Shown here one piece after another: positions 1,259-29,460 of a stretch of 64,000 bases of DNA. The notes beneath the pieces are model-generated. The model did not search any database, was not told where the DNA came from, and saw only the letters and a list, made by a program, of their open reading frames with translations. The position numbers and the translations under genes were made by a program. Source of the DNA: Panorpa germanica (lineage: Eukaryota; Arthropoda; Insecta; Mecoptera; Panorpidae); assembly GCA_963678705.1 (NCBI GenBank), contig OY783208.1, positions 7,316,001 to 7,380,000 on the forward strand, in the 5' to 3' direction. Numbering within the stretch: position 1 is the first letter of the stretch; every line of letters begins with the position of its first letter.

Positions 1259-1265
1259 TTAACAC

Positions 1266-1982: not shown

Positions 1983-2053
1983 CCTTTACAATAATAATCA
2001 GTGTTGAGGTAACTATCTTCATAATAACATGCATTTATTATCTTAATAAACAT

Positions 2054-2236: not shown

Positions 2237-2248
2237 GTTGCATAAAGT

Positions 2249-3577: not shown

Positions 3578-3627
3578 ATACTTAAACACATTCCCTTCTT
3601 TTTCATTAATAACGAAATGTAAGTAAC

Positions 3628-3855: not shown

Positions 3856-3877
3856 TAAATTTTGTGTAATAATAAGT

Positions 3878-7358: not shown

Positions 7359-7421
7359 TTTTAAATAAATAAAACTGTTGGTTATTATAAATATGTATTT
7401 ATTTTTACATTAAAAATATAC

Positions 7422-10400
7422 TTATAAGAATAAATCGCTCTCACTAAAACTATCAAAACCCCAAGGCAAAGTATTGGTACTATTTTTTATAATACACCGT
7501 TTATCATCAAAAGGACTTAAAGCAATTTTTGTTTGCTTAATAGAGAACACATTATGCAATTTTGAAACTATTCCTCTTTGAGTACATTTTTTTTCATTTA
7601 AAGTTCTTTAACAATTTTCATAATCTTCAAAAGAAATATGGTTTTTTACTACACTTGTCTTTACTCCTTTTATTTTTTTTATAATATCATTATTATTAAC
7701 TTTTATTGTATACATTTTCGATCTTAGTCCTATAAAGTGAGTCATAATTTTACCGTTATTTTCATCCTTCATTAAACCTAATACCTTTTTATTTACACGG
7801 GGAATATTATATTGATTGTTTTCTTTATAATCACTTGTATCAAACTTACTTATATCGCGTTTTATAGTTTCATAAATATCTGATGTGATAATTTCATATA
7901 TTAACGAGTCAGTATCAATATATAATAACTTTAAATTATTATTAAAAAATTCTTTTTGCATATAATTATAATGAAAATCATACATTACTGTTTTAGATAA
8001 ATCTAATATTGAAAAGCCAACATATATAGGTTTATTAAATGTAATATTAGGTTTTAAAAGTTCAATAGCCACAACATTTTTATTAAAAATTGTTCGGCTA
8101 TGAAAATTAGGTCGTGCTATTAAACTTTTTACTCCATAACGACCACCCCATTTTGTTTTTAATTTTATATCACGATGTTTTCTAACATTTTCCATTGTCT
8201 TACCAAATACACTATTATTCATTAATTTATACAAGTTTTTTTCAAAATCATTGGTAGCCATTTTTCTTTTTTCTGTATTTAAATCGATATAGTTTTTTAG
8301 CCACGGTGATTGACTAAATTTTAAAACTCGATGTATTTTTGACACTTGCATTCCTAAATGTATACATTGCTTTAAATTACTATAATGAATTATATATTTC
8401 TCCTTATCATATAAAGTAGTTAAAAGTTTTTTATGTTTACTTCCCGGTGGAATACAATGCTCAGGACAAAGCGGTAAATCTTTATGGAGATTATGTAAAC
8501 TTTGAGGATAAGTTAAATCTACTTCTAAAATGTAACTAGTATTGCTAGTTTCTGACAAATTGCATATAGTATTACTTATTTCCAATATTTCTTGGTTGTT
8601 TAACCATTTAAAATTTCCATATGGTAGGAATTGAGACATTGCATGACCGTATAAGTTATTAACATCCAAATACATTAGATATTTAGAAGGTAATTCAGGT
8701 TTATACTTTTCATTCATGTATTTGTTATTGGCCTCTGCATATCTGTTTGAACATTGACTTATACCACCTCTGATACCCTTCTCTATAAATAGCCACATAT
8801 TTATATCAGTAAACAATTCAAGTTTAATTTTTGTTATTTTTAACATAGAATCCCAAGATAACTGTGGGGCGGAAACATAATGCACTGGATCTAATTTATA
8901 CGTGTCTAAACAATTATCTCGAAAATTTTCAAATATGTCACAAAGTAATAACACATCGGTTTTTAAGTACAAATCTGAATATTCACCAAGTGTTTTGATA
9001 TGAAATGTATTCCATACATCTTGTGCATGTTTGTAATCTACATCAGATAAGTTACTATCATTTAATAAATTAAAAAAATTATCCTGAGGTGGTAAAGCTG
9101 TCTCATTTAACTTTTCCCAGGAATTTATATAATCATAAGGAAATACACCTTTTTTACTTAACAAAGTAAATTCTTCATTGCTTAAATTGTTAAATTCTGT
9201 TTTTAAATTTTTTGTTTATTATTTGGTAAATAAGATGTCAAATTACTTAAAGAACTAGCCATAAATCGATATGAATCAATAAATCTTAATGAAATATTAG
9301 TTCCATACACATATTTCGTAAATGAAATATATTTTTCTATATTAATTGGTAGCACAGAGGTTCTTCCACTTATTCCGGTAGCTAAATCAATTATTATAAA
9401 ATGTGAATCATAAGATGATAAATTGTGAAGAATTATTGAAATCACATAACTTTCATTATAATTTAAATTACATTCATTATGAGCTGGTCCTCTATAATTT
9501 CCTGTTAAATGACAATGATCTCGAACACGGTTTTGTTGCAACGGTTTTTCACATATATGACAATTTATTGCATTTAAATATTCCATCTTTTGTTGAGCCG
9601 TCAATGTTTTCATTGGTAATACATTTTTTATTATATCCTCAACATTATAAGCAATCTCTTTTAATTCATTTACAAACCACTAAACGCAATCTTCATCACG
9701 ATAACTATTATAATAAGATTTAGAGTCATCATATGAATATTTTACATAATATCCAACGCTATGTGCAATATGTGTTTGATATACCCCCTTGGTTTCAATA
9801 TTTGTCACATTACTATCCAATATACTTTCAAAGTCTGCATAAATAACACATGCATTTCTAATTTTTCTCTTAAAGTTTTTAAACTCAAGTATATTAGAAT
9901 TTTCATCTGGCATTATCGGTTTAACTGGTCTCAGTCCTAATCTAACACAGTCTTGTAAATGTTCCTTAAACTTGCACTCATATCTAAAGAAATGTAAACA
10001 TCGATCACATATAAATTTTTTATGATTTGTTTTTGAAAGTTGATTACTAACAAGTCTTGATAAATTCTTTATCCAACAAAAATGAAATTTTATTTTATTG
10101 TCACCTTCCTCATTATTACTTTCAACAACATCTTCCTCATCCTCTTCATCTTCTTCTTCTTCATCTTCTACTTCATAATCACTTTGAATCATTAATAAAT
10201 GTATATGTTTACTTTCATATATTTTACTTACATATACAGGAATAGTTATAAATGTTTTCTTGTTCTTTTTTAAAATATACACATTTATTGTTATATTATT
10301 TAGTTTTTCAATTTTTGAAGCTTGTGATAACGTCATTGGAAATTTAATACCATTTAAATTAAGACAATTTATATATTTCTTATAAGACGATACTCTCTCG

Positions 10401-11224
10401 CTATGAATTTTTGATGGATAAAGCGCTGATAATACTGCCCATACAAAACATTTGTCATCTTCATTCTGAACATTTATTACAGCCTTTTTTCGTTTTATTT
10501 CAACTGGTAAGTCAATAAATGATGAACCATAAAATGGAACAAATTGATTTATATTTACTATCATATTCACTATTTTATATAGAGCCCATCCACTTTGATT
10601 TTCTTGAAAAGTTTCTAAATCTTTTAACACAACATCAATAACATTTTCCTTATACCAATGTTTTAAATCTGTTGATACAAAAATTTCATTATTTTTAGTA
10701 TTAAAATATTTGTATTCAAATATATGTTCTTCTTCTTTAGCTGATGGTAAAACAAATTCACCACAAAATATTACGTTAACTTTTAAAGCACTATATTTTT
10801 TTAAAGCATTTTTAATTCTAGATGCAAACATATAAAATGCATCGTTTAAAAATTGTAATGGATCAATATGACTTAAATTATTTAACACTCCTGTTCTAAC
10901 ACGTCCTTTAAATGATGAATTTATTTCCTGCCATTTAATCCGATCACTACGTTTTATACTATTTATAGTTCCTCCTCCTCCAACTTTTTGTTTATTTTCT
11001 AACAATGTTTGAAAATATTTTAAGACACTTATATTGCTTTCAATGCTTCGCTTATATCCAATTGAATAGGTATTTTTATTATTTTTTAATAACTTATTTA
11101 ACAACTTTATATTTATTTTATTATAATCAGACCACTTTTTCCACTGAATACTTAAATAATTTGAACTATTCAAATGTTCAATAATTGTTCTCATATGCTT
11201 AATAATCTTACAACCGTTATCCAT
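7422..11224 (-). pseudogene. POLB: Polinton 1 protein-primed DNA polymerase (family B, type 2), broken
   Basis: A polymerase of about 1266 codons is read from 11224 down to 7422. In order it has an N-terminal region with a CDRC...H zinc finger, exonuclease motif YADFES, an endonuclease-VII-like zinc finger CHICEKPL...RDHCHLTG, then polymerase motif [10 protein letters not shown], motif [12 protein letters not shown] and motif C YIDTDSL. Breaks relative to the palindrome copies: a CAG-to-TAG nonsense at 9680-9682, a 1-bp deletion near 9211-9216, and a TCA-to-TAA nonsense at 7608-7610 that removes the last ~60 residues. An acidic tract of GAA/GAT codons lies near 10130-10170. The catalytic residues of motifs A and C are kept. 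It is convergent with the integrase. Confidence 0.9.
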
Positions 11225-12364
11225 TTTAAATTATATATTTCAGTTTGAAAATCAAAATATAAATCACAATTGTTTTTAAAAGTTCATTTATTTATAGAAT
11301 TTTACATAAAAAATATGCATTAATCACTATGTTATACTTTTACAATTTCGTCATCAGAGTCTAACACTTGTACAGTTTCATCGTCCGAATATTTCAGTTT
11401 GAAAATCAAAATATAAATCACAATTGTTTCTAAAAGTTCATTTATTTATAGAATTTTACATAAAAAATATGCATTAATCACTATGTTATACTTTTACAAT
11501 TTCGTCATCAGAGTCTAACACTTGTACAGTTTCATCGTCCGAGTCTAATATTTCAATAACTTCACTATTGCATAAGAATAATTTATATACAAAGTTCTCA
11601 TGAGAACATGTGTTTTATCAGGTTTTTTTTCTGGTGAATTCGTGGTCTTACGCTCACACAGTTTAACAAATGTGCTTCAAGTTACATTCCCATTACGTTC
11701 AAGTTACGTTCGAACTATTTAAAGTTTGTATGTCAAATTCAACGTAACTTATGCGCTTGTAACCAAAAGTTCTCACACATGTGCTGTTTGCAAATTTCTG
11801 GTGAATTCGAAGCGCTATAAATACACTGTTATAAATAATTTAACACTGTTATTGTAATAGTTATTGTTATAATCTATGTTTAACAATCCTTAAGAATATA
11901 TATCACAAATTATACTATAACCTTTCATATTATACCCCACCATGTGTAATATAACGTCATTATAACATATAACTAACACTTTTGCACCTACAACGTCATA
12001 ATCTTATAACCAATAACAAATCAAACATAAGAATTAATATCGGTATCTCACACTTTACCACTATTGCTTTCTCACTCATAACCTTGGGTATTGTAGAGAA
12101 TGTACCAACAGATAAAAGCTGTAATGACGTCATCATCTTCTACTAGGACACGAACATAAACGATTGGTTTCCGGAAATTGACGAAGAATGCAATAATTAC
12201 GCCCAACATTGTCTAGCCACGCCCCCTCACTCCTCGCCCCACTATTACCCCCAACATTGTCTAACCACGCCCCCTTCTTCATACCGTGACCTATATGCAT
12301 CCTCACTCCAATAATTTCCAACTCAATTTCAAATTTAAGCCAGAAACGGCTCTACTACCCTACT
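11225..12364 (-). other. Polinton 1 polymerase-side terminal region
   Basis: This is about 1.1 kb between the polymerase start and the element end. It is homologous in inverted sense to 14277-15200 and directly to 28531-29454. It holds a tandem duplication of period 154 bp (about 11235-11542), one short ACGTTCCCATTACGTTC segment (about 11685-11705), and the conserved acidic mini-ORF described separately. No long ORF is convincing here. The terminus CCTACT ends at 12364, and the next six bases, GTTATG, are the expected target duplication. Confidence 0.75.
11486..11566 (-). other. conserved acidic mini-ORF upstream of polymerase (26 codons)
   Basis: The frame encodes a SEVIEILDSDDE-type segment followed by TVQVLDSDDEIVKV and a stop. 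The same peptide is at 15013-15093 and 28638-28718. It contains two hydrophobic-core-plus-acidic motifs (VIEILDSDDE, VQVLDSDDE) that resemble SUMO-interacting motifs. No in-frame ATG lies upstream, so it could be the last exon of a small spliced gene or simply non-coding. Part of it is also in the 154-bp tandem duplication. Confidence 0.35.
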
Positions 12365-13908
12365 GTTATGTTGTCCATAACTAAACAATTAAACTGTGTA
12401 GTTAAAGAATGTATATTTACATTTATTTTAGAAGTGATACTTGTAGATGCATTGCCAATTCCAGATATAACTACATTCGTATTCGTTAAGTTATTACTTA
12501 ATTTATGAACTAGATGTTTAGTTATAAAACTGGTTTGACTTCCATTATCAAGTAATGCCCTTGCTGTAATCGATTTTCCTTTATCATCAATGATTTTAAC
12601 TAATGCTGTTGAAAGCAAAGTTTGATTAGCATTAAGAGTTTGAGATGTGAAAGTATCACTAGAGGTGGATGGTATAGCTAAATCATTTTGAGTTGGTTCA
12701 GAGGTGGATGGAAATAAGTGCAACAAAGTATGATGCATCTTGCCACATACATAACATGAGTTTTTTGAAGTGCACCTTTTAGTAAAGTGACCTTTTCTCA
12801 TACAGTTCAAACATAAATTATGTTTTCTTGCTTCTTTAATACGTGAACTTACTGTCCAATTAGAAAATGTCTTGCATTGGTGGACGGAATGATCGTCATT
12901 ACAAAAACAACATTTATTATTTTGATAAGCCACTAAAGATCGCTGAAATTTGGATTTTTTACTAACTTTTGTATATTCACGTTGTTCATCAATTTCTTGG
13001 GCGCGTACCGACATAAATGATAAGATTGAATCAATAGTTAGAAAATCACTTTTAGAGCTTTGAGACAAATGCCATTGAGCTTTAGTGAAGGAATCTAATT
13101 TTTTAAATATTAAAGTAGTAATAATTTGATCCCAACGTTTTTCAGATGGAATACTATTTTCCAAAGACCTTATATGTTTTCTAATGAGGGATACTGTGAC
13201 TCTTAAGTTATCACTAGATTCTAAATTTAAATTAGGGATATTTAAAAATGAATTTATGTGATGAGAAATTATTTGTCTTTTATTGTCGTAAGTTTCAAGC
13301 AAAAGTTCCCAACATAATTTGTAGTTTTGGCCATCAATTTCAACGGATGATATTATATCAAGTGCTTCACCCTTTAAACAACTTCTAAGCAAATGAATCT
13401 TTTTGTGATTCGAATAGTTAACTTGACTGTGAATCAAGCTCATATATCTTGATTTAAAGGCACTCCAATTTGCAATATCACCGTAGAAAGTAGGTACCGA
13501 GATACGATGTAAATCAATATCGTTATTAGTATGATTGCATGAATTACTTATATTTAGAGATGATTCCGGTTCAGGATTAGGAAGTATTTCATTTACTACA
13601 GACTTTATTTCTAAATATTTATTGTAAAAATCAGCACGTATATCATCTATTCTTTTTGTTTCAGAAGCGTTATCAATACTTAGTTCCAGTATTGAAGTGC
13701 AAATTTCTTGTAATTCATCAAACAGAGGAGAACATATTTCTTTATAAGATCTTATTTTGTGAATATTATAAGTAGAAGGATCATCTACATTTATTTTATC
13801 AATTAATTTGACATGAATATCTAAAGTAGATTGAATGCAATGCAATTTAGCATTTAGTTTTCTTAATACTGCTATGATGATAATAAATATTATTGAATAT
13901 TTAATCAA
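12365..13908 (-). pseudogene. BEL/Pao gag-protease ORF, truncated by Polinton 1
   Basis: An open frame of 514 codons reads from 13908 to the Polinton junction at 12365 and stops inside the Polinton. Residues ~120-290 match the BEL/Pao gag core (DUF1759-like): PTFYGDIANWSAFKSRY and HLLRSCLKGEALD. Zinc knuckles follow (CFCNDDHSVHQC, CLNCMRKGHFTKRC, CYVCGKMHH). Then comes a retropepsin-like domain with ARALLDNGSQTSFIT, the DUF1758 aspartic protease site. Reverse transcriptase, RNase H and integrase should continue beyond Polinton 1, left of the window. The start at 13908 is the first ATG; the hydrophobic first 15 residues are unusual, so a later start is possible. Confidence 0.85.
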
Positions 13909-14270
13909 AACAGTAAATAAGTTATGTATATACCTAACAACTTTGTGGGGTTGAGGTGTAGATGATTAAAAATATACGTATAAAATCAACTTTGTGGGGT
14001 TGACGTATATTTAAATTAATGTATATACCTATGAAATCAACTTTGTGGGGTTGAGGTATAAATTAAATATAGTATATACCTATAAAATCAACTCTATGAG
14101 GTTGAGGTATAAATGATTAAACATATACGTATGAAATCAACTCTATGAGGTTGACGTAAATTAAAATTTATGTATATACCTATGAAATCAACTCTATGAG
14201 GTTGAGGTATAAATGATTAAACATATACGTATGAAATCAACTCTATGAGGTTGACGTATATTAAAATTTA
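13909..14270 (-). repeat. minisatellite in the BEL/Pao leader, left part
   Basis: Alternating ~50-bp half-units carry TATACCTATGAAATCAACTC / TATGAGGTTGAGGTATAAA and a variant with GTTGACGTATATTAAAATTT, making a ~100-bp higher unit. The array is split at 14276/29455 by the palindromic element and continues in the same orientation at 29461-29895. Units nearest the gag ORF (13925-14060) are more divergent, with TTTGTGGGGTTGA. Confidence 0.9.
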
Positions 14271-14276
14271 TGTATA
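14271..14276. repeat. 6-bp target-site duplication, left copy (TGTATA)
   Basis: TGTATA directly precedes the element end AGTAGG at 14277. The matching copy is at 29455-29460. Removing the element and one copy restores the minisatellite consensus ATTTATGTATATACCTATG. Six-base duplications and AG...CT ends are typical of Polintons. Confidence 0.9.
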
Positions 14277-15200
14277 AGTAGGTTAGTAGAGCCGGTTCTG
14301 GCTTAAATTTGAAATTGAGTTGGAAATTATTGGTGGTGGGGATGCATTTAGGTCACGATATGCAGAGGGGGCGTGGCTAGACTTGGAAGAATGTAAAAGG
14401 GGGTAAGGGTGGGGTAAGGAGTGAGGGGTAAGTGGATAAGCTGTGTTGTGATTGGTTTAGAAGATGATGACATCATTACAGCTTTTATCTGTTGGTACAG
14501 TCTCTTTGATATCCGATATGAGTGAGAAAGCAATAGTGGTAAAGAGTGAGATACCGATATTAATTCTTATGTTTGATTTGTTATTGGTTATAAGATTATG
14601 ACGTTGTAGTAGTTATATGTTATAATGACGTTATATTACACATGGTGGGGTATAATATGAAAGGTTATAGTATAATTTGTGATATATATTCTTAAGGATT
14701 GTTAAACATAGATTATAACAATAACTATTACAATAACAGTGTTAAATTATTTATAACAGTGTATTTATAGCGCATTCCTTCGAATGTAACTTGAAGCACA
14801 CGTGTTAGCCGGCGTCAGCACATGTTCTCATGAAACTTTAGGCACAAGAGCATTACTTCGAATGTAACTTGAAGCACACGTGTTAGCCGGCGTCAGCACA
14901 TTTCTCATGAGAACTTTGTATATAAATTATTCTTATGGGAACGTGTTGAATACAAGCGAATATTTTCCAAACGTAGACAAATTTTTTTGTATATAAATTA
15001 TTCTTATGCAATAGTGAAGTTATTGAAATATTAGACTCGAACGATGAAACTGTACAAGTGTTAGACTCTGATGACGAAATTGTAAAAGTATAACATAGTG
15101 ATTAATGCATATTTTTTATGTAAAACTCTATAAATAAATGAACTTTTAAAAACAATTGTGATTTATATTTTGATTTTCAAACTAAAATATATAATTTACA
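14277..15200 (+). other. left-arm terminal region of the palindromic Polinton
   Basis: The terminus reads AGTAGGTTAGTAGAGCC. A direct repeat of period 78 bp (about 14779-14935) contains CACGTGTTAGCCGGCGTCAG. A second duplication of period ~64 bp (14924-15010) contains a TATATAAAT box. The conserved acidic mini-ORF is at 15013-15093. Otherwise the region is non-coding. Confidence 0.75.
15013..15093 (+). other. conserved acidic mini-ORF, left-arm copy
   Basis: It encodes 26 residues with EVIEILDSNDE and VQVLDSDDEIVKV before a stop. It lies 107 bp upstream of the polymerase ATG. The frame is open back to 14977 but has no ATG. Conservation in three copies is expected from recent common origin, so it is weak evidence for coding. 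Confidence 0.3.
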
Positions 15201-16259
15201 ATGGATACCGGTTGTAAGATTATTAAGCATATGAGAACAATTATTGAACATTTGAATAGTTCAAATTATTCAAGTATTCAGTGGAAAAAGTGGTCTGATT
15301 ATAATAAAATAAATATAAAGTTGTTAAATAAGTTATTAAAAAATAATAAAAATACCTATTCAATTGGATATAAGCGAAGCATTGAAAACAATATAAGTGT
15401 CTTAAAATATTTTCAAACATTGTTAGAAAATAAACAAAAAGTTGGAGGAGGAACTATAAATAGTTTAAAACGTAGTGATCGAATTAAATGGCAGGAAATA
15501 AATTCATCATTTAAAGGACGTGTTAGAACAGGAGTGTTAATTAATTTAAGTCACATTGATCCATTACAATTTTTAAACGATGCATTTTATATGTTTGCAT
15601 CTAGAATTAAAAATGCTTTAAAAAAATATAGTGCTTTAAAAGTAAACGTAATATTTTGTGGTGAATTTGTTTTACCATCAGCTAAAGAAGAAGAACATAT
15701 ATTTGAATACAAATATTTTAATACTAAAAATAATGAAATTTTTGTATCAACAGATTTAAAACATTGGTATAAGGAAAATGTTATTGATGTTGTATTAAAA
15801 GATTTAGAAACTTTTCAAGAAAATCAAAGTGGATGGGCTCTATATAAAATAGTGAATATGATAGTAAATATAAATCAATTTGTTCCATTTTATGGTTCAT
15901 CATTTATTGACTTACCAGTTGAAATAAAACGAAAAAAGGCTGTAATAAATGTTCAGAATGAAGATGACAAATGTTTTGTATGGGCAGTATTATCAGCGCT
16001 TTATCCAGCAAAATATAATGCTGAAAAAGTATCGTCTTATAAGAAATATATAAATTGTCTTAATTTAAATGGTATTAAATTTCCAATGACGTTATCACAA
16101 GTTTCAAAATTTGAAAAACTAAATAATATAACAATAAATGTGTATATTTTAAAAAAGAACAAGAAAACTTTTGTAACTATTCCTGTATATGTAAGTAAAA
16201 TATATGAAAGTAAACATATACATTTATTAATGATTCAAAGTGATTATGAAGTAGAAGAA

Positions 16260-16290
<31 letters not shown>

Positions 16291-19001
16291 ATGTTGTTGA
16301 AAGTAATAATGAGGAATGTGACAATAAAATAAAATTTCATTTTTGTTGGATAAAGAATTTATCAAGACTTGTTAGTAATCAACTTTCAAAAACAGATCAT
16401 AAAAAATTTATATGTGATCGATGTTTACATTTCTTTAGATATGAGTACAAGTTTAAGGAACATTTACAAGACTGTGTTGGATTAGGTCTAAGACCAGTTA
16501 AACCGATAATGCCAGATGAAAATTCTAATATACTTGAGTTTAAAAACTTTAAGAGAAAAATTAGAAATGCATGTGTTATTTATGCAGACTTTGAAAGTAT
16601 ATTGGATAGTAATGTGACAAATATTGAAACCAAGGGGGTATATCAAACACATATTGCACATAGCGTTGGATATTATGTAAAATATTCATATGATGACTCT
16701 AAATCTTATTATAATAGTTATCGTGGCGAAGATTGCGTTCAGTGGTTTGTAAATGAATTAAAAGAGATTGCTTATAATGTTGAGGATATAATAAAAAATG
16801 TATTACCAATGAAAACATTGACGGCTCAACAAAAGATTGAATATTTAAATGCAATAAATTGTCATATATGTGAAAAACCGTTGCAACAAGACCGTGTTCG
16901 AGATCATTGTCATTTAACAGGAAATTATAGAGGACCAGCTCATAATGAATGTAATTTAAATTATAATGAAAGTTATGTGATTCCAATAATTTTTCACAAT
17001 TTATCATCTTATGATTCACATTTTATAATAATTGATTTAGCTAACGGAATAAGTGGAAGAACCTCTGTGCTACCAATTAATAAAGAAAAATATATTTCAT
17101 TTACGAAATATGTGTATGGAACTAATATTTCATTAAGATTTATTGATTCATATCGATTTATGGCTAGTTCTTTAAGTAATTTGACATCTTATTTACCAAA
17201 TAATAAACTAAAAAATTTAAAATCAGAATTTAACAATTTAAGCAATGAAGAATTTACTTTGTTAAGTAAAAAAGGTGTATTTCCTTATGATTATATAAAT
17301 TCCTGGGAAAAGTTAAATGAGACAGCTTTACCACCTCAGGATAATTTTTTTAATTTATTAAATGATAGTAACTTATCTGATGTAGATTACAAACATGCAC
17401 AAGATGTATGGAATACATTTCATATTAAAACACTTGGTGAATATTCCGATTTGTACTTAAAAACCGATGTGTTATTACTTTGCGACATATTTGAAAATTT
17501 TCGAGATAATTGTTTAGAGACGTATAAATTAGATCCAGTGCATTATGTTTCTGCCCCAGGCTTAGCATGGGATTCTATGTTAAAAATTACAAAAATTAAA
17601 CTTGAATTGTTTACTGATATAAATATGTGGCTATTTATAGAGAAGGGTATCAGAGGTGGTATAAGTCAATGTTCAAACAGATATGCAGAGGCCAATAACA
17701 AATACATGAATGAAAAGTATAAACCTGAATTACCTTCTAAATATCTAATGTATTTGAATGTTAATAACTTATACGGTCATGCAATGTCTCAATTCCTACC
17801 ATATGGAAATTTTAAATGGTTAAACAACCAAGAAATATTGGAAATAAGTAATACTATATGCAATTTGTCAGAAACTAGCAATACTGGTTACATTTTAGAA
17901 GTAGATTTAACTTATCCTCAAAGTTTACATAATCTCCATAAAGATTTACCGCTTTGTCCTGAGCATTGTATTCCACCGGGAAGTAAACATAAAAAACTTT
18001 TAACTACTTTATATGATAAGGAGAAATATATAATTCATTATAGTAATTTAAAGCAATGTATACATTTAGGAATGCAAGTGTCAAAAATACATCGAGTTTT
18101 AAAATTTAGTCAATCATCGTGGCTAAAAAACTATATCGATTTAAATACAGAAAAAAGAAAAATGGCTACCAATGATTTTGAAAAAAACTTGTATAAATTA
18201 ATGAATAATAGTGTATTTGGTAAGACAATGGAAAATATTAGAAAACATCGTGATATAAAATTAAAAACAAAATGGGGTGGTCGTTATGGAGTAAAAAGTT
18301 TAATAGCACGACCTAATTTTCATAGCCGAATAATTTTTAATAAAAATGTTGTGGCTATTGAACTTTTAAAACCTAATATTACATTTAATAAACCTATATA
18401 TGTTGGCTTTTCAATATTAGATTTATCTAAAACAGTAATGTATGATTTTCATTATAATTATATGCAAAAAGAATTTTTTAATAATAATTTAAAGTTATTA
18501 TATATTGATACTGACTCGTTAATATATGAAATTATCACATCAGATATTTATGAAACTATAAAACGCGATATAAGTAAGTTTGATACAAGTGATTATAAAG
18601 AAAACAATCAATATAATATTCCCCGTGTAAATAAAAAGGTATTAGGTTTAATGAAGGATGAAAATAACGGTAATATTATGACTCACTTTATAGGACTAAG
18701 ATCGAAAATGTATACAATAAAAGTTAATAATAATGATATTATAAAAAAAATAAAAGGAGTAAAGACAAGTGTAGTAAAAAACCATATTTCTTTTGAAGAT
18801 TATGAAAATTGTTCAAGAACTTTAAATGAAAAAAAATGTACTCAAAGAGGAATAGTTTCAAAATTGCATAATGTGTACTCTATTAAGCAAACAAAAATTG
18901 CTTTAAGTCCTTTTGATGATAAACGGTGTATTATAAAAAATAGTACCGATACTTTGCCTTGGGGTTTTGATAGTTTTAGTGAGAGCGATTTATTGTTATA
19001 A
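15201..19001 (+). pseudogene. POLB: Polinton protein-primed DNA polymerase, left arm (near full length)
   Basis: At 1266 codons this is the most complete polymerase in the window. Visible parts are exonuclease motif I with Asp463 and Glu465 in [21 protein letters not shown], an endonuclease-VII-like zinc finger (about residues 554-584), motif [12 protein letters not shown], and motif C YIDTDSL (Asp1103). Two defects are seen. A TAA at 16260-16262 lies at the start of a GAA-repeat tract. Motif A reads YLNVNNLYG, where the other two copies have YLDVNNLYG: an Asp-to-Asn change at residue 853 (17757-17759), a metal-binding residue. The copy should be catalytically dead even if the stop were read through. 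Its 3' end is 64 bp from the convergent integrase. Confidence 0.9.
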
Positions 19002-19065
19002 GTATATTTTAATGTAAAAATAAATACATATTTATAATAACCAATAGTTTTATTTATTTAAAATG

Positions 19066-19745
19066 TTATACAATATTTTTAGCATCTATCCAACTGTTAT
19101 GAGATTTATCTAAACCTAACCACTTTACAAAAACTCTTTTTCCTTTTCTCTGTAAAACTTTCTCAACTAGATATATATCTGGATATTTTGTTTTTTGTAG
19201 TTCTTGTTCGTAAAACGCGCCTGCAATTGATTGGCCAAGAGAATCATTAAGTAAATATGTGACTGGATTAGTTAGTTGTACTTTTGATATAGTAAATATT
19301 TCGGTACTCCAGTTAGGAGTATACCCTTTTGCAAATAATGATTTGGTTTTGCTTAAACGAACATAATCTCCAACTTTATATTGACTTAAACCGACCCTTT
19401 TTATTCTATTGTATACATTTCCTAATAATTTTTTTTCATTTTTTATTGATACTTGAGATGGCTTCATATTAATTGTTGAATGATGAGAATTATTATATTT
19501 CTTAACAAGTGCATCAATGTTTTTAATCCAATTATAGTTGCCTTTTATACTAAAATCTTTCCACATGGCATTTTTTAGAGTTCTATTAAATCTTTCAACA
19601 ATCGATGCTTTCATATTACTAAATGTACTATAATGGTTTATATCATACGAATCTATAACTTTTTTAAATTCAGTGTTATAAAATTCCTTTCCGTTATCTG
19701 TTTGTAAGTTTTTCGGAACCTTATTCTTATTTTTTAATAAAATAT
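19066..19745 (-). pseudogene. INT: Polinton integrase, 5'-truncated, left arm
   Basis: The open part (19614-19066) encodes the catalytic Glu region KASIVERFNR and the C-terminal chromodomain-like end. Homology extends upstream through QTDNGKEF to about 19745, where it stops at a junction with an unrelated polymerase fragment. The first catalytic Asp and the N terminus are absent, so no functional integrase can be made. The palindrome must therefore have been mobilised in trans. Confidence 0.88.
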
Positions 19746-20913
19746 TTCAATATTTAATGTATTGGGATGCAAATAACTAAAGCTATTGAAGATAACTCAG
19801 ATGTTGGTTATATATTAGAAGTCGATTTAAGATATCCTAATTATTTGCACGATGAACACAATGATCTACCTTTCTGTGCCGAAAATATTAAACCACCTTG
19901 CATTAAAACAAATGACGTTAAATTAATACCAAATCTAAATAACAAGTATAATTATGTGCTTCACAATAGATCGTTAAAGCAATGTCTTAAAAATAATCTG
20001 AAAATAGATAAAATTCATAGAATTTTGGAATTTAAACAGTCTGATTGGTTAAAAAGTTATATTGATCTAAATACATTAAAAAGAAAGAACTCTGCAAATA
20101 CATTTGAGAAAAAACTTTTTTAAATTAATGAATAATTCAGTTTATGGTAAAACAATGGAAAATGTAGATAAACGTGTTGATGTAAAGTTAATAACTCATT
20201 GGGATAATATAGGAAAAACAATGGGTGCTAATACACTTATAAGTAAACCAAACTATCATAGTTGTTCTATATTTCATGAAAACTTAGTTGCTATTCAAAT
20301 GCAAAAACTTAAAGTTTTTTATAATAAACCATTGTATTTAGGATTAAGTGTACTTGATATATCAAAAAACTTTAATATACGATTTTCATTATGATTTCAT
20401 CAAAAAAAAAAAATCTATAAAGGTAATGCTAAATTGTTGTATACAGATACAGATTCATTAATATATCAAATTAAAACAGATGATATATATGACGATATTA
20501 AGTGTAATCTAGATAAATTTGATACATCTAATTATCCATTTAATAATGAATTTTCATTACCTTTAATGAACAAAGCTAAATTAGGCTTAATGAAAGATGA
20601 ATGCGCGAGTAGTATAATTTGGGAGTTTGTTAGGTTAAGGTCAAAAATGTATGCAATTGATATTGAGGGTTCATGCACAGCTAAAGCAAAAGGAATTAAG
20701 AAAAATATTGTAAACAAATTCAATATTAAAGATTATGTAAATTGTTTATCTCAGGATAACATATTATTGATCACAATGAATACCTTTAAATCTATTAAGC
20801 ATACAATTTATACTCAAATGATAAGTAAAGTAGGTCTTAGTGGAAATGATAATAAAAGTTATGTATTAACTGATGGTATAAGTACTTTAGCACATGGACA
20901 TTATAAAATTTAG
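19746..20913 (+). pseudogene. C-terminal fragment of a second, divergent Polinton polymerase, left arm
   Basis: The sequence starts abruptly with a motif-A-like YLMYWDANN. It then has [11 protein letters not shown], motif B FKLMNNSVYGKTMEN and motif C LLYTDTDSLIYQ, ending ISTLAHGHYKI. It is related to the 15201 polymerase but clearly a different lineage. Frameshifts near 20105-20125 and 20390-20435 and a deletion after motif A break it. It is fused at its 5' side to the truncated integrase of the first Polinton, head to head. Confidence 0.85.
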
Positions 20914-21138
20914 TACTAATTTTAAGTTAAGTTTAAGTTTTGTATAAATTTATATCTGTTTTAGTTAAGATAATTAAAATGTATATTTATATAACAATTG
21001 AAAAATAGCATATTTATAAATAAATAATAATATATAAACACAAACCATTGAGTTTTATTATTATAAGATTTAATGTTTTAATACATCCATATAAAATAAG
21101 ATACACATATTTTATTAGTAATGTTTTGTTATATATAA
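20914..21138. other. AT-rich 3' flank of the polymerase fragment, left arm
   Basis: No gene is visible. The sequence is AT-rich and may be the remnant of the spacer between the second Polinton's polymerase and a neighbouring convergent gene. Confidence 0.4.
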
Positions 21139-21492
21139 TCTTAATATATATAAATTACGTGTCACTGTGTTGTCCCCTATGGACTCCTAAACTACTTAAC
21201 CGATTTTAATGAAATTTGTACACCGTGTGCAGTTTGACCCAACTTGAAAGATAGGATAGCTTACATCTCAATTTATTTATCTTATTGCTAATTATTTGTC
21301 TATTAATTATCTGTATATGACATATGACATCGGGCGACGATGATGGCGACATCTGTTGACTAGATTGAGTAAATATTCTGTTGAGTAAATCGAAATCTGT
21401 TGACTAGATTGAGTAAATATTCAATACATGGCGCTATGTAATGTAATATGACAAAAACGTTAGGCACAGCAACGCGTGGCCGGGACAGCTAG
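21139..21492 (+). mobile_element. non-autonomous Helitron, 354 bp, left arm
   Basis: It begins TCTTAATATATATAAATTAC and ends GGGACAGCTAG, between A and T. The interior (GGACTCCTAAACTACTTAAC, CACCGTGTGCAGTTTGA) is a type I recognise as widespread in insect non-autonomous Helitrons. Its mirror copy at 22641-22994 is nearly identical, so it inserted before the inverted duplication formed. Confidence 0.85.
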
Positions 21493-22640
21493 TTCTTATA
21501 TAATTAACACTGGTCATAAGAGCTCTAATATATATATATATATATATGCATAGACATATTAATGTATAAGTATGCGTACATAAAGTGGATAACAATTGTA
21601 TACGTTATATGCAGGAGCAGTACCCAACTTGAACGTAATGGGAACGTAACTTGCATGAACGTACTGGGAACTACGTTCCCATTACGTTTAAGTTACGTTG
21701 AATTTTTATATATATATATATGCATAGACATATTAATGTATGAGTATGCATACATAAAGTGGATGACAATTGTATACGTTATATGCAGGAGCAGTACCCA
21801 ACTTGAACGTACTGGGAACGTAACTTGAACTTACTAGGAACGTAACTTGCATGAACGTACTGGGAACTACGTTCCCATTACGTTTAAGTTACGTTCCCAG
21901 TACGTTCAAAAATGCTTGATGACAATTGTATACGTTATATGCAGGAGCAGTACCCAACTTGAACGTACTGGGAACGTAACTTAAACGTACTGGGAACGTA
22001 ACTTGAACGTAATGGGAACGTAACTTGAACGTAATGGGAACGTAACTTGGAACGTAATTCAACGTAAGCTTACGTTGAATTACGTTCTTACGTTCCCATT
22101 ACGTTCAAGTTACGTTCCCATTACGTTCAAGTTACGTTCCCAGTACGTTCAAGTTACGTTCCCAGTACGTTCAAGTTGGGTACTGCTCCTGCATATAACG
22201 TATACAATTGTCATCAAGCATTTTTGAACGTACTGGGAACGTAACTTAAACGTAATGGGAACGTAGTTCCCAGTACGTTCATGCAAGTTACGTTCCTAGT
22301 AAGTTTAAGTTACGTTCCCAGTACGTTCAAGTTGGGTACTGCTCCTGCATATAACGTATACAATTGTCATCCACTTTATGTATGCATACTCATACATTAA
22401 TATGTCTATGCATATATATATATATAAAAATTCAACGTAACTTAAACGTAATGGGAACGTAGTTCCCAGTACGTTCATGCAAGTTACGTTCCCATTACGT
22501 TCAAGTTGGGTACTGCTCCTGCATATAACGTATACAATTGTTATCCACTTTATGTACGCATACTCATACATTAATATGTCTATGCATATATATATATATA
22601 TATATTAGAGCTCTTATGACCAGTGTTAATTATAAAGGAA
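21493..22640. repeat. palindrome centre: ACGT-rich tandem repeats and TA tracts
   Basis: Short units such as ACTTGAACGTAATGGGAACG and its complement fill about 21615-22530, with larger blocks around a (TA)n tract and GCAGGAGCAGTACCCAACTT. The centre is a spacerless perfect palindrome of 38 bp (22050-22087) around AAGCTT. The arms differ just outside it by 4 bp. Frames open through this repeat are not genes. Confidence 0.9.
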
Positions 22641-22994
22641 CTAGCTGTCCCGGCCACGCGTTGCTGTGCCTAACGTTTTTGTCATATTACATTACATAGC
22701 GCCATGTATTGAATATTTACTCAATCTAGTCAACAGATTTCGATTTACTCAACAGAATATTTACTCAATCTAGTCAACAGATGTCGCCATCATCGCCGCC
22801 CGATGTCATATGTCATATACAGATAATTAATAGACAAATAATTAACAATAAGATAAATAAATTGAGATGTAAGCTATCCTATCTTTCAAGTTGGGTCAAA
22901 CTGCACACGGTGTACAAATTTCATTAAAATCGGTTAAGTAGTTTAGGAGTCCATAGGGGACAACACAGTGACACGTAATTTATATATATTAAGA
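22641..22994 (-). mobile_element. non-autonomous Helitron, 354 bp, right arm
   Basis: This is the mirror copy of 21139-21492. CTAG is read as 22644-22641 and TC as 22994-22993. At least one single-base difference from the left copy is visible (CGGGCGGCG against CGGGCGACG). Confidence 0.85.
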
Positions 22995-23219
22995 TTATAT
23001 ATAACAAAACATTACTAATAAAATATGTGTATCTTATTTTATATGGATGTATTAAAACATTAAATCTTATAATAATAAAACTCAATGGTTTGTGTTTATA
23101 TATTATTATTTATTTATAAATATGCTATTTTTCAATTGTTATATAAATATACATTTTAATTATCTTAACTAAAACAGATATAAATTTATACAAAACTTAA
23201 ACTTAACTTAAAATTAGTA
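22995..23219. other. AT-rich flank, right-arm mirror of 20914-21138
   Basis: Mirror of the left-arm spacer; no gene seen. Confidence 0.4.
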
Positions 23220-24387
23220 CTAAATTTTATAATGTCCATGTGCTAAAGTACTTATACCATCAGTTAATACATAACTTTTATTATCATTTCCACTAAGACC
23301 TACTTTACTTATCATTTGAGTATAAATTGTATGCTTAATAGATTTAAAGGTATTCATTGTGATCAATAATATGTTATCCTGAGATAAACAATTTACATAA
23401 TCTTTAATATTGAATTTGTTTACAATATTTTTCTTAATTCCTTTTGCTTTAGCTGTGCATGAACCCTCAATATCAATTGCATACATTTTTGACCTTAACC
23501 TAACAAACTCCCAAATTATACTACTCGCGCATTCATCTTTCATTAAGCCTAATTTAGCTTTGTTCATTAAAGGTAATGAAAATTCATTATTAAATGGATA
23601 ATTAGATGTATCAAATTTATCTAGATTACACTTAATATCGTCATATATATCATCTGTTTTAATTTGATATATTAATGAATCTGTATCTGTATACAACAAT
23701 TTAGCATTACCTTTATAGATTTTTTTTTTTTGATGAAATCATAATGAAAATCGTATATTAAAGTTTTTTGATATATCAAGTACACTTAATCCTAAATACA
23801 ATGGTTTATTATAAAAAACTTTAAGTTTTTGCATTTGAATAGCAACTAAGTTTTCATGAAATATAGAACAACTATGATAGTTTGGTTTACTTATAAGTGT
23901 ATTAGCACCCATTGTTTTTCCTATATTATCCCAATGAGTTATTAACTTTACATCAACACGTTTATCTACATTTTCCATTGTTTTACCATAAACTGAATTA
24001 TTCATTAATTTAAAAAAGTTTTTTCTCAAATGTATTTGCAGAGTTCTTTCTTTTTAATGTATTTAGATCAATATAACTTTTTAACCAATCAGACTGTTTA
24101 AATTCCAAAATTCTATGAATTTTATCTATTTTCAGATTATTTTTAAGACATTGCTTTAACGATCTATTGTGAAGCACATAATTATACTTGTTATTTAGAT
24201 TTGGTATTAATTTAACGTCATTTGTTTTAATGCAAGGTGGTTTAATATTTTCGGCACAGAAAGGTAGATCATTGTGTTCATCGTGCAAATAATTAGGATA
24301 TCTTAAATCGACTTCTAATATATAACCAACATCTGAGTTATCTTCAATAGCTTTAGTTATTTGCATCCCAATACATTAAATATTGAA
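23220..24387 (-). pseudogene. C-terminal fragment of the second Polinton polymerase, right arm
   Basis: This is the mirror copy of 19746-20913, with the same frameshifts, deletion and motifs (YTDTDSLIYQ, NNSVYGKTMEN). The shared damage shows that decay preceded the inverted duplication. The translated pieces are identical to the left arm over their full lengths. Confidence 0.85.
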
Positions 24388-25067
24388 ATATTTTATTAAA
24401 AAATAAGAATAAGGTTCCGAAAAACTTACAAACAGATAACGGAAAGGAATTTTATAACACTGAATTTAAAAAAGTTATAGATTCGTATGATATAAACCAT
24501 TATAGTACATTTAGTAATATGAAAGCATCGATTGTTGAAAGATTTAATAGAACTCTAAAAAATGCCATGTGGAAAGATTTTAGTATAAAAGGCAACTATA
24601 ATTGGATTAAAAACATTGATGCACTTGTTAAGAAATATAATAATTCTCATCATTCAACAATTAATATGAAGCCATCTCAAGTATCAATAAAAAATGAAAA
24701 AAAATTATTAGGAAATGTATACAATAGAATAAAAAGGGTCGGTTTAAGTCGATATAAAGTTGGAGATTATGTTCGTTTAAGCAAAACCAAATCATTATTT
24801 GCAAAAGGGTATACTCCTAACTGGAGTACCGAAATATTTACTATATCAAAAGTACAACTAACTAATCCAGTCACATATTTACTTAATGATTCTCTTGGCC
24901 AATCAATTGCAGGCGCGTTTTACGAACAAGAACTACAAAAAACAAAATATCCAGATATATATCTAGTTGAGAAAGTTTTACAGAAAAAAGGAAAAAGAGT
25001 TTTTGTAAAGTGGTTAGGTTTAGATAAATCTCATAACAGTTGGATAGATGCTAAAAATATTGTATAA
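24388..25067 (+). pseudogene. INT: Polinton integrase, 5'-truncated, right arm
   Basis: Mirror copy of 19066-19745, truncated at the same junction. The frame is closed by a stop right at the fusion point. It differs from the left copy at two residues seen here: LSRYKVGDY against LSQYKVGDY, and LQKKGKR against LQRKGKR. At both sites it agrees with Polinton 1. Confidence 0.88.
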
Positions 25068-25131
25068 CATTTTAAATAAATAAAACTATTGGTTATTATA
25101 AATATGTATTTATTTTTACATTAAAATATAC

Positions 25132-28100
25132 TTATAACAATAAATCGCTCTCACTAAAACTATCAAAACCCCAAGGCAAAGTATCGGTACTATTTTTTAT
25201 AATACACCGTTTATCATCAAAAGGACTTAAAGCAATTTTTGTTTGCTTAATAGAGTACACATTATGCAATTTTGAAACTATTCCTCTTTGAGTACATTTT
25301 TTTTCATTTAAAGTTCTTGAACAATTTTCATAATCTTCAAAAGAAATATGGTTTTTTACTACACTTGTCTTTACTCCTTTTATTTTTTTTATAATATCAT
25401 TATTATTAACTTTTATTGTATACATTTTCGATCTTAGTCCTATAAAGTGAGTCATAATATTACCGTTATTTTCATCCTTCATTAAACCTAATACCTTTTT
25501 ATTTACACGGGGAATATTATATTGATTGTTTTCTTTATAATCACTTGTATCAAACTTACTTATATCGCGTTTTATAGTTTCATAAATATCTGATGTGATA
25601 ATTTCATATATTAACGAGTCAGTATCAATATATAATAACTTTATATTATTATTAAAAAATTCTTTTTGCATATAATTATAATGAAAATCATACATTACTG
25701 TTTTAGATAAATCTAATATTGAAAAGCCAACATATATAGGTTTATTAAATGTAATATTAGGTTTTAAAAGTTCAATAGCCACAACATTTTTATTAAAAAT
25801 TATTCGGCTATGAAAATTAGGTCGTGCTATTAAACTTTTTACTCCATAACGACCACCCCATTTTGTTTTTAATTTTATATCACGATGTTTTCTAATATTT
25901 TCCATTGTCTTACCAAATACACTATTATTCATTAATTTATACAAGTTTTTTTCAAAATCATTGGTAGCCATTTTTCTTTTTTCTGTATTTAAATCGATAT
26001 AGTTTTTTAGCCACGATAATTGACTAAATTTTAAAACTCGATGTATTTTTGACACTTGCATTCCTAAATGTATACATTGCTTTAAATTACTATAATGAAT
26101 TATATATTTCTCCTTATCATATAAAGTAGTTAAAAGTTTTTTATGTTTACTTCCCGGTGGAATACAATGCTCAGGACAAAGCGGTAAATCTTTATGGAGA
26201 TTATGTAAACTTTGAGGATAAGTTAAATCTACTTCTAAAATGTAACCAGTATTGCTAGTTTCTGACAAATTGCATATAGTATTACTTATTTCCAATATTT
26301 CTTGATTGTTTAACCATTAAAAATTTCCATATGGTAGGAATTGAGACATTGCATGACCGTATAAGTTATTAACATCCAAATACATTAGATATTTAGAAGG
26401 TAATTCAGGTTTATACTTTTCATTCATGTATTTGTTATTGGCCTCTGCATATCTGTTTGAACATTGACTTATACCACCTCTGATACCCTTCTCTATAAAT
26501 AGCCACATATTTATATCAGTAAACAATTCAAGTTTAATTTTTGTAATTTTTAACATAGAATCCCATGCTAAGCCTGGGGCAGAAACATAATGCACTGGAT
26601 CTAATTTATACGTCTCTAAACAATTATCTCGAAAATTTTCAAATATGTCGCAAAGTAATAACACATCGGTTTTTAAGTACAAATCGGAATATTCACCAAG
26701 TGTTTTAATATGAAATGTATTCCATACATCTTGTGCATGTTTGTAATCTACATCAGATAAGTTACTATCATTTAATAAATTAAAAAAATTATCCTGAGGT
26801 GGTAAAGCTGTCTCATTTAACTTTTCCCAGGAATTTATATAATCATAAGGAAATACACCTTTTTTACTTAACAAAGTAAATTCTTCATTGCTTAAATTGT
26901 TAAATTCTGATTTTAAATTTTTTAGTTTATTATTTGGTAAATAAGATGTCAAATTACTTAAAGAACTAGCCATAAATCGATATGAATCAATAAATCTTAA
27001 TGAAATATTAGTTCCATACACATATTTCGTAAATGAAATATATTTTTCTTTATTAATTGGTAGCACAGAGGTTCTTCCACTTATTCCGGTAGCTAAATCA
27101 ATTATTATAAAATGTGAATCATAAGATGATAAATTGTGAAAAATTATTGGAATCACATAACTTTCATTATAATTTAAATTACATTCATTATGAGCTGGTC
27201 CTCTATAATTTCCTGTTAAATGACAATGATCTCGAACACGGTCTTGTTGCAACGGTTTTTCACATATATGACAATTTATTGCATTTAAATATTCAATCTT
27301 TTGTTGAGCCGTCAATGTTTTCATTGGTAATACATTTTTTATTATATCCTCAACATTATAAGCAATCTCTTTTAATTCATTTACAAACCACTGAACGCAA
27401 TCTTCGCCACGATAACTATTATAATAAGATTTAGAGTCATCATATGAATATTTTACATAATATCCAACGCTATGTGCAATATGTGTTTGATATACCCCCT
27501 TGGTTTCAATATTTGTCACATTACTATCCAATATACTTTCAAAGTCTGCATAAATAACACATGCATTTCTAATTTTTCTCTTAAAGTTTTTAAACTCAAG
27601 TATATTAGAATTTTCATCTGGCATTATCGGTTTAACTGGTCTTAGACCTAATCCAACACAGTCTTGTAAATGTTCCTTAAACTTGTACTCATATCTAAAG
27701 AAATGTAAACATCGATCACATATAAATTTTTTATGATCTGTTTTTGAAAGTTTGAAACATTTGTCATCTTCATTCTGAACATTTATTACAGCCTTTTTTC
27801 GTTTTATTTCAACTGGTAAGTCAATAAATGATGAACCATAAAATGGAACAAATTGATTTATATTTACTATCATATTCACTATTTTATATAGAGCCCATCC
27901 ACTTTGATTTTCTTGAAAAGTTTCTAAATCTTTTAATACAACATCAATAACATTTTCCTTATACCAATGTTTTAAATCTGTTGATACAAAAATTTCATTA
28001 TTTTTAGTATTAAAATATTTGTATTCAAATATATGTTCTTCTTCTTTAGCTGATGGTAAAACAAATTCACCACAAAATATTACGTTTACTTTTAAAGCAC

Positions 28101-28530
28101 TATATTTTTTTAAAGCATTTTTAATTCTAGATGCAAACATATAAAATGCATCGTTTAAAAATTGTAATGGATCAATGTGACTTAAATTAATTAACACTCC
28201 TGTTCTAACACGTCCTTTAAATGATGAATTTATTTCCTGCCATTTAATTCGATCACTACGTTTTAAACTATTTATAGTTCCTCCTCCAACTTTTTGTTTA
28301 TTTTCTAACAATGTTTGAAAATATTTTAAGACACTTATATTGCTTTCAATGCTTCGCTTATATCCAATTGAATAGGTATTTTTATTATTTTTTAATAACT
28401 TATTTAACAACTTTATATTTATTTTATTATAATCAGACCACTTTTTCCACTGAATACTTGAATAATTTGAACTATTCAAATGTTCAATAATTGTTCTCAT
28501 ATGCTTAATAATCTTACAACCGTTATCCAT
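25132..28530 (-). pseudogene. POLB: Polinton polymerase, right arm, with 402-bp in-frame deletion and one stop
   Basis: This mirror copy of the 15201-19001 gene keeps the catalytic Asp of motif A (YLDVNNLYG) and motif C (YIDTDSL). It lacks 134 codons after DDKCF, covering the conserved N-terminal block and the acidic tract. One nonsense codon (AAA to TAA) at 26317-26319 follows LPYGNF. The first part (28530-26317) is a 737-aa open frame with the exonuclease and motif A; the rest (26295-25132) has motifs B and C. Confidence 0.9.
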
Positions 28531-29454
28531 TGTAAATTATATATTTCAGTTTGAAAATCAAAATATAAATCACAATTGTTTTTAAAAGTTCATTTATTTA
28601 TAGAGTTTTACATAAAAAATATGCATTAATCACTATGTTATACTTTTACAATTTCGTCATCAGAGTCTAACACTTGTACAGTTTCATCGTCCGAGTCTAA
28701 TATTTCAATAACTTCACTATTGCATAAGAATAATTTATATACAAAAAAATTTGTCTACGTTTGGAAAATATTCGCTTGTATTCAACACGTTCCCATAAGA
28801 ATAATTTATATACAAAGTTCTCATGAGAAATGTGCTGACGCCGGCTAACACGTGTGCTTCAAGTTACATTCGAAGTAATGCTCTTGTGCCTAAAGTTTCA
28901 TGAGAACATGTGCTGACGCCGGCTAACACGTGTGCTTCAAGTTACATTCGAAGGAATGCGCTATAAATACACTGTTATAAATAATTTAACACTGTTATTG
29001 TAATAGTTATTGTTATAATCTATGTTTAACAATCCTTAAGAATATATATCACAAATTATACTATAACCTTTCATATTATACCCCACCATGTGTAATATAA
29101 CGTCATTATAACATATAACTACTACAACGTCATAATCTTATAACCAATAACAAATCAAACATAAGAATTAATATCGGTATCTCACTCTTTACCACTATTG
29201 CTTTCTCACTCATATCGGATATCAAAGAGACTGTACCAACAGATAAAAGCTGTAATGATGTCATCATCTTCTAAACCAATCACAACACAGCTTATCCACT
29301 TACCCCTCACTCCTTACCCCACCCTTACCCCCTTTTACATTCTTCCAAGTCTAGCCACGCCCCCTCTGCATATCGTGACCTAAATGCATCCCCACCACCA
29401 ATAATTTCCAACTCAATTTCAAATTTAAGCCAGAACCGGCTCTACTAACCTACT
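28531..29454 (-). other. right-arm terminal region of the palindromic Polinton
   Basis: Mirror of 14277-15200 with the same 78-bp direct repeat. It ends CTCTACTAACCTACT at 29454. The acidic mini-ORF copy is at 28638-28718. Confidence 0.75.
28638..28718 (-). other. conserved acidic mini-ORF, right-arm copy
   Basis: Third copy of the 26-codon acidic frame, with the LDSDDE-type core. It lies 108 bp upstream of the right-arm polymerase start. Confidence 0.3.
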
Positions 29455-29460
29455 TGTATA
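29455..29460. repeat. 6-bp target-site duplication, right copy (TGTATA)
   Basis: It directly follows CCTACT, the right element end, and is identical to 14271-14276. Confidence 0.9.

Follow-up and report, generated by a model that had tools for sequence, protein, structure and literature searches.

The 64,000-nt window analyzed here (the whole stretch at positions 7,316,001–7,380,000 of contig OY783208.1, assembly GCA_963678705.1, of the mecopteran Panorpa germanica) contains, at 14277–29454, a 15.2-kb palindrome composed of two Polinton polymerase-side arms that meet at the axis AAGCTT (22066–22071). The conclusion that this unit is a real palindromic Polinton and one of a large palindromic family is well supported by the results described below. 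We consider it probable that the family is a heritable one of gene-poor Polinton satellites, which are replicated by protein priming, kept symmetric by snap-back or hairpin copying, and integrated by a Polinton integrase.

The left arm (14277–22068, + strand) runs for 7792 nt from the Polinton polymerase-side terminus to the axis, and the right arm (22069–29454, − strand), its inverted copy, measures 7386 nt. The inverted repeat covers the entire unit, in place of the terminal inverted repeats (TIRs) much shorter than the element that characterize Polintons. An inverted-repeat search returned two pairings of 5665 nt (16381–22045/22088–27752) and 1708 nt (14269–15976/27755–29462), both printed as 100% complementary after rounding. 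A base-by-base comparison of the arms revealed 19 single substitutions, a 4-nt indel (22046–22049), and a large indel in which 404 nt of the left arm (15977–16380, +) stand opposite 2 nt in the right arm, a net difference of 402 nt. A chance origin of the palindrome was rejected because the arms are 7 kb long.

The unit has inverted termini (AGTAGG...CCTACT) and is flanked by the 6-bp target-site duplication TGTATA at 14271–14276 and 29455–29460. Both ends are polymerase-side ends, as judged against the PolB-side terminus, at 12364, of the ordinary Polinton at 1–12364. When the flanks (100 bp each) were joined with one TGTATA, 198 of 200 positions matched a further copy of the surrounding minisatellite. 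These findings bear out three proposals of a sequence-only reading of the window, namely that 14277–29454 is a palindromic Polinton with a 6-bp duplication, that it carries the same polymerase-side terminus twice beside TGTATA, and that removing it with one TGTATA restores the minisatellite. That reading missed that the arms are unequal and that the sequence inward of ~19747 is not of the ordinary Polinton type.

We searched the genome (249 contigs, cited as C1, C5 and so on; 464,208,970 bases; the window is on contig 5) and read seven palindromes: the window unit (W), C1a (C1:5.33 Mb), C7 (C7:1.96 Mb), C1b (C1:8961781–8975320), C8 (C8:565201–579687), C9 (C9:17201149–17216974), and Q (C1:22180335–22195876), the six besides W having been selected for matches in inverted order. 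All seven showed the marks of integration, with AG...CT termini, inverted 12-bp ends, and a perfect 6-bp target duplication that was different in each (TGTATA, AAAATG, ACTGTA, AGTATC, GCTGTA, ATCCGA, and AACGTG among the seven). Because of these seven different duplications, segmental duplication was rejected as the source of the fetched copies. The units measured 13.5–15.8 kb and had PolB and/or integrase (INT) sequence in their arms. That each palindrome has its own duplication and inverted ends supports the earlier claim that the palindrome predates integration and was inserted as one unit.

The arms of the window unit are composite. An ordinary (non-palindromic) Polinton of the type giving the outer arms neighbors the palindrome at 1–12364 (− strand; cut by the window start). 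Fragments of PolB lie next to its 12364 terminus, and matches to integrase, A32 ATPase, and phospholipase-like proteins follow farther inward. Two of the fetched places, C5:18.98 Mb and C115, also proved ordinary. The ordinary Polintons are 97–99% alike to the window outer arm as far as arm position 5471, which lies within INT and ends the match. The match starts at the first base in C5:18.98 Mb, at ~0.46 kb in C115, and at ~0.7 kb in the window neighbor; nearer the terminus, the latter two are just 76–81% alike to the window arm. INT in the ordinary elements is a 321-aa frame with rve and a chromodomain (C5:18.98 Mb), from which the C115 frame differs at 4 residues. Beyond INT, C115 has a 443-aa open reading frame (ORF), an A32 ATPase, a phospholipase-like protein, a weak protease match, and a double-jelly-roll capsid protein; a capsid-gene search of the genome gave 98–100% identity for all 40 scored matches (best 40 of 340 candidates). 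Repeat arrays of the type found at the palindrome center occur in two ordinary Polintons, where they separate the 443-aa ORF from the ATPase-side gene. No second end of the C5:18.98 Mb element was found within the stretch examined. In the window neighbor, we also noted that the A32 ATPase and a phospholipase A2-like protein accompany a PolB in several pieces, and that ~2.4 kb (4910–7359) unlike the arm is edged by a 101-bp near-duplicate (4810–4910 and 7359–7459; 96%).

The inner halves of the arms have other relatives. The segment 19748–21450 recurs elsewhere at 98–100% identity (41 matches listed; best 40 of 2356 candidates scored), and the inner parts of C8 and C9, both full palindromes, are 97–99% like that of the window unit, with C1b having one such half only. 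The outer arms of C8 and C9 are just 66–79% like the window arms, in pieces, except for an 88-bp stretch in C9 (97%). We use the name P family for elements with this shared P inner half, inverted arms, and an array center. The P-family halves of W lie at 19748–22068 (+) and 22069–24386 (−); the left half contains PolB-like remnants, with ORFs at 19758–20123 and 20395–20913 that have no Pfam match, and both lead into the central array (21800–22333), which consists of 11/22-bp repeats (AACTTGAACGTACTGGGAACGT type and its complement) and is full of short inverted repeats. The P-family PolB-like gene has 66–70% DNA identity to the window PolB, is not recognized by Pfam, and is in pieces in C8 and C9.

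The outer ordinary-Polinton arm meets the P center through a short shared stretch. This A/P junction, from ordinary Polinton INT to the P-family PolB-like stretch, lies at 19736–19765 (+) and 24368–24397 (−), and its exact 30-mer occurs at the window locus, C1:5.33 Mb (C1a), and C7:1.96 Mb (C7) only, at each of them twice and inverted, again in line with a palindrome that predates integration; one further match, with 2 mismatches, lies on C185. The window unit is thus a chimera of ordinary-Polinton outer arms and a P-family center. Of the inverted dimer proposed earlier, the palindrome of Polinton ends stands, but derivation from one Polinton does not; a simple inverted dimer of a single Polinton was rejected because the center is shared with a different and commoner palindromic family.

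Marker searches suggested that the inverted arrangement is widespread. The axis 22-mer (≤1 mismatch) occurred at 116 genome sites and a P-arm marker 30-mer (≤2 mismatches) at 507, compared with 0 for each control. Clustering was counted from the sites listed, namely 100 of 507 for the P-arm (all exact), 100 of 285 for INT, and 50 of 116 for the axis. Merging tandem copies reduced the listed P-arm sites to 92, and 66 of these 92 arms were in tail-to-tail (+−) pairs, a lower bound, as mismatched partners lie outside the list. Neighbors <12 kb apart among these sites were tail-to-tail in 33 of 36 cases (2 ++, 1 −−); for comparison, 507 randomly placed sites would be expected to give 6.6 neighboring pairs in any order. 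Likewise, neighboring pairs were tail-to-tail in 13 of 13 cases for P-arm PolB-like DNA (top 40 of 72 rows; best 40 of 959 candidates) and in 14 of 16 for the spacer sequence (40 of 41 rows; best 40 of 2356 candidates), with 32 lower PolB-like rows and one 31-base spacer row omitted from these counts. Among the 100 listed INT sites, 26 formed 13 tight (<4 kb) +− pairs, of which 12 lay inside listed P pairs and 9 enclosed a listed axis. The remaining 74 sites included two wider +− pairs, one ++ pair, and one −− pair, with the rest single, as expected for ordinary Polintons. A listed exact axis was enclosed by 16 of the 32 listed P pairs on C1–C4. Other units with the window's center thus exist, as the 116 sites of the 22-mer and the AAGCTT axis of C9, with its own target duplication, illustrate, and the pairing of P-arms runs counter to a picture in which the arms of other copies always stand separate. 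Three listed P pairs at C1:11.88–11.97 Mb are identically spaced and could be segmental copies. We also observed a more complex multimer of the P family at C11:1806916–1820795, where three direct P spacers 3.2 kb apart are followed by one inverted.

Read inward from its outer end, each window arm has the Polinton terminus, then PolB, then the final 226 residues of an integrase encoded in the opposite direction. The left PolB has two open pieces, one of 355 aa from stop to stop (15195–16262, +), which alone has no Pfam match, and one of 912 aa (16263–19001, +) with an Endonuclease_7 match. The right PolB comprises a 739-aa piece (26317–28536, −), which lacks 402 nt of the left arm, and a 394-aa piece without a Pfam match (25132–26316, −), split from the first by a stop private to the right arm; PolB of this unit is therefore broken, and differently in each arm. 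The truncated integrase (19066–19746, −; mirror copy at 24387–25067, +) retains the end of rve and the chromodomain and corresponds by offset to residues 96–321 of the 321-aa INT, so that a complete retroviral-like integrase is lacking. A Pfam search of window-arm open frames of ≥120 aa gave zero matches to a packaging ATPase, protease, or capsid. We read the window copy as having been inserted with near-identical arms and having decayed afterwards.

Other palindromes have retained more. C1a, C7, and C1b combine a truncated INT with a PolB that is open in one arm or both, both arms of Q have an open 321-aa INT, and neither gene is intact in C8 or C9; the enzyme kept therefore differs between palindromes. 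The two C1a arms have PolB frames of 1262 and 1267 aa, both C1b arms and the left C7 arm have frames of 1262–1267 aa, and the right C7 arm has one of 649 aa, so that PolB is one open frame in five of the six arms. Of 7998 proteins scored in a search with the C1a PolB, 503 were homologues, including many of insect origin and some named DNA-directed DNA polymerase; the listed matches showed 44–57% identity, many of them to named insect proteins. By this homology PolB belongs to the protein-primed type of family B DNA polymerases, the priming itself being assumed. The ratio of nonsynonymous to synonymous substitution (dN/dS) was 0.23–0.46 in all 28 pairs of 8 rows, the window PolB not being among them, which hints that PolB stayed functional within the palindromic lineage or until shortly before it. 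One homologue, a Polinton-type PolB (P0037), is recorded as belonging to a Rickettsia that lives in the weevil Ceutorhynchus as an endosymbiont; our guess is that it may be insect DNA in a bacterial assembly.

We then compared the arms within and between palindromes. In the outer part, the two arms differ at 13 of 5070 positions in W, 2 of 5440 in C1a, 7 of 5500 in C7, and 13 of 5353 in C1b (0.04–0.26%; the compared lengths differ because the rows stop at slightly different inner points), whereas different palindromes are 1.2–2.4% apart. Of these 35 arm differences (one of those in W borders the large indel), 33 are private to a single arm, and the remaining 2 are found elsewhere in both states. 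A tree of 10 rows (midpoint root; window neighbor at 1–12364 left out) placed the left and right arms as sisters in all four elements, with support of at least 100/99. If arms were inherited separately, the left-right distance would equal the between-element distance; this was not seen, indicating that the arms were not inherited separately. Since arms are alike within an element while elements have diverged, one arm must have been copied onto the other, before or after insertion. The arms of C9 and Q are identical (0 mismatches in 7802 and 7766 columns, respectively), and each of these elements has its own ~0.9-kb tandem duplications mirrored across both arms.

Three acquisitions from ordinary Polintons are likewise mirrored: the junction of W, C1a, and C7; the integrase end of C1b, where the two sides agree within ~15 nt; and a 1132-bp INT segment in Q. 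The last looks acquired because it is 99.6% like an ordinary Polinton and lies between P-type stretches, and we accordingly dropped the idea that Q-like P arms with INT are the ancestral state. Even the first kilobase, in which W is 8–13% different from C7 and C1b, is mirrored within elements up to the base beside the target duplication. Together, these results suggest that palindromy is no single accident and that symmetry has been restored in each lineage.

The observations to be explained are therefore full-length palindromy, separate 6-bp duplications, within-element mirroring of substitutions, junctions, and duplications, and the exchange of modules with ordinary Polintons; the replication mechanism of palindromic Polintons is what we infer from them. 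The palindrome would replicate as linear protein-primed DNA using a Polinton PolB. A displaced palindromic strand could fold on itself, or a nascent strand could snap back at the central repeats, such that one arm would template the other and symmetry would be reset after recombination or mutation. Under this proposal, an ordinary-Polinton arm captured once would now be found on both sides. An integrase, supplied by ordinary Polintons or by INT-carrying palindromes, would then act on the two identical ends, insert the whole palindrome, and duplicate 6 bp. We favor copying before insertion because the inverted-repeat array allows snap-back and a displaced palindromic strand can form a hairpin. 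Ordinary Polintons are possible helpers; given their number and the genes that the palindromes lack, dependence on such a helper in trans is likely. Whether these palindromes amount to a distinct heritable virus-like mobile DNA, whose genetic unit is half the element (a hairpin half-genome that opens out into a near-perfect palindrome, integrates in this form, is re-symmetrized with every cycle, and trades its polymerase and integrase modules with those of helper Polintons), is in our judgment evenly balanced.

Several observations weigh against this explanation. Both protein priming and the existence of a terminal protein are assumptions drawn from the family of the PolB, and the selection signal on PolB is weak between C1a and C7 (dN/dS 0.34; 9 of 15 changes nonsynonymous; P = 0.046). 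The arms of C8 differ at 32 of 7157 positions, more than those of W, C1a, C7, or C1b. Centers vary, with the AAGCTT axis present in W and C9, the 22-mer present twice in C7, and altered centers in both C1a and C8. The two sides of C1b do not match, as the P half is missing from the right arm and the joint lies at AGCTT; this element fits better as a palindrome that may have lost one inner half by deletion between AGCTT-containing sites, and we dropped the idea of a separate class. The arm tree also departs from the shared W/C1a/C7 junction, grouping W with two ordinary Polintons and placing C7 beside C1b instead of C1a; this mismatch indicates recombination of the outer arms, which appear to have been exchanged with ordinary Polintons or other palindromes as well. 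Terminal homogenization is not visible in C115, the one ordinary element with both ends compared, whose terminal repeats are 80–88% alike, weak evidence since no target duplication was found there and another terminus abuts its right end. Finally, 26 of the 92 listed P-arms, all exact matches, have no listed partner, and single-armed copies may exist.

Symmetry could also be maintained after insertion if the palindromes transposed as ordinary double-stranded units and host gene conversion then kept their arms alike, as in sex-chromosome palindromes. Long intrachromosomal palindromes are known gene-conversion substrates, and arms 99.5–100% alike in the copies compared would agree with this. We nevertheless regard it as unlikely, as arm divergence varies from 0 to ~0.45% between elements and the predominance of differences private to one arm is what insertion without later conversion would leave. 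The 402-nt difference and the arm-specific PolB stop of W stand unconverted, which shows inaction there only since those mutations, and the first kilobase is mirrored right up to the target duplication despite its divergence between copies. Much less probable still is that each palindrome arose anew from a monomer by fold-back at the central array and integrated once. The axis does lie in an array with inverted repeats, similar arrays occur in ordinary Polintons, and the unpaired P-arms could be monomers; but the exact A/P junction is confined to W, C1a, and C7, in both orientations at each (the C185 match with 2 mismatches apart), an exact-pattern search found no monomeric junction carrier of the kind this route needs, and the divergence of 1.2–2.4% between junction-sharing copies requires an interval of inheritance or recombination.

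An assembly or library artefact, in which the palindrome came from fold-back reads or from an assembler retracing a single arm, has a negligible probability in our estimate, even though HiFi reads may fall short of the 15.2-kb unit and the assembly was made with hifiasm. The 19 substitutions and two indels that separate the arms speak against the folded read considered in the sequence-only reading, in which one arm would be an artefact. Both flanks continue the same minisatellite in register, neither flank is repeated inverted, and seven loci have seven different target duplications; a simple fold-back artefact was rejected on these grounds. The assembly itself is based on 52-fold HiFi coverage, reaches a quality value (QV) of 59.9, was manually curated, and has 254 scaffolds (PMC11464959).

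Elsewhere in the window, a 536-aa open frame (12358–13965, −) with a DUF1759 match and weak DUF1758 and aspartyl-protease matches is presumably a piece of a BEL/Pao-type retrotransposon. Six stretches of 84-bp tandem repeats (~2 to 12 copies) at 32653–54831 read like C2H2 zinc-finger arrays. In the genome, 19 of 20 COX1 matches lie outside the mitochondrial contig 249 (on C1, C3, C5, C16, C21, and others); all are fragments, most with TGA codons, and they are likely to be nuclear copies of mitochondrial DNA. A 447-aa COX1 piece encoded on contig 249 itself (16,386 bases) showed 100% identity to several Panorpidae and 99% to Panorpa communis.

Palindromes that are symmetric and yet diverging offer a natural record of arm-onto-arm copying, making strand folding in replication testable in an accessible insect. 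They indicate that Polinton integration tolerates an element with the same end twice and that virus-like elements can be accompanied, within a genome, by satellite lineages exchanging genes with full elements, and they caution annotators that one Polinton end may occur twice. As a speculation, transcripts across the inverted arms could feed RNA silencing of helper polymerase and integrase genes.

The sequence-only reading held a palindromic integrating Polinton to be undescribed, and we found no paper on one in the open-licence literature searched, outside which most subscription journals lie. The word stem palindrom- is absent from the text of PMC8097293, which describes, in the sections available, vertebrate Mavericks with TIRs, 6-bp duplications, AGT-type end motifs, and protein-primed PolB; the available sections of PMC6431247 describe Polintons with PolB, integrase, and TIRs and mention no palindromic elements. 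The main text of the P. cognata genome paper (PMC10715201) contains none of Polinton, Maverick, or palindrom-. Polintons are thought to be protein-primed, and the available parts of these accounts report no replication intermediate. Among viral contigs in IMG/VR, 179 pattern matches were obtained, and none was confirmed as a relative.

The palindromes share with Polintons/Mavericks an insect-type PolB, AGTAG...CTACT ends, and the 6-bp target duplication, and the related ordinary elements have an INT with a chromodomain. Unlike these elements, the palindrome is all inverted repeat, with two PolB ends and no distinct second end, and the window arms have no capsid, ATPase, or protease match. Foldback elements and miniature inverted-repeat transposable elements (MITEs) with long inverted repeats are non-autonomous, consist mostly of inverted repeat, and usually lack replication genes; the Panorpa units are similarly mostly inverted repeat but measure 13.5–15.8 kb and have PolB and/or INT sequence. 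The symmetric recombinant Ad12 SYREC and other palindromic defective adenoviruses reportedly carry one viral end twice, on either side of foreign DNA. They would resemble the Panorpa family in having a linear protein-primed genome (priming being assumed here), one end twice, and a foreign center, but they are variants of virions and stocks, whereas the Panorpa palindromes sit in the genome between target duplications and make up a diversified family there. The yeast linear plasmid pGKL1 is said to give rise to hairpin and inverted-dimer derivatives, in which a deletion form of a protein-primed element occurs both as a hairpin and as the corresponding unfolded palindrome. This derivative is the closest model for symmetry made by replication, although, unlike the Panorpa palindromes, it is extrachromosomal, laboratory-made, and without integration or a family.

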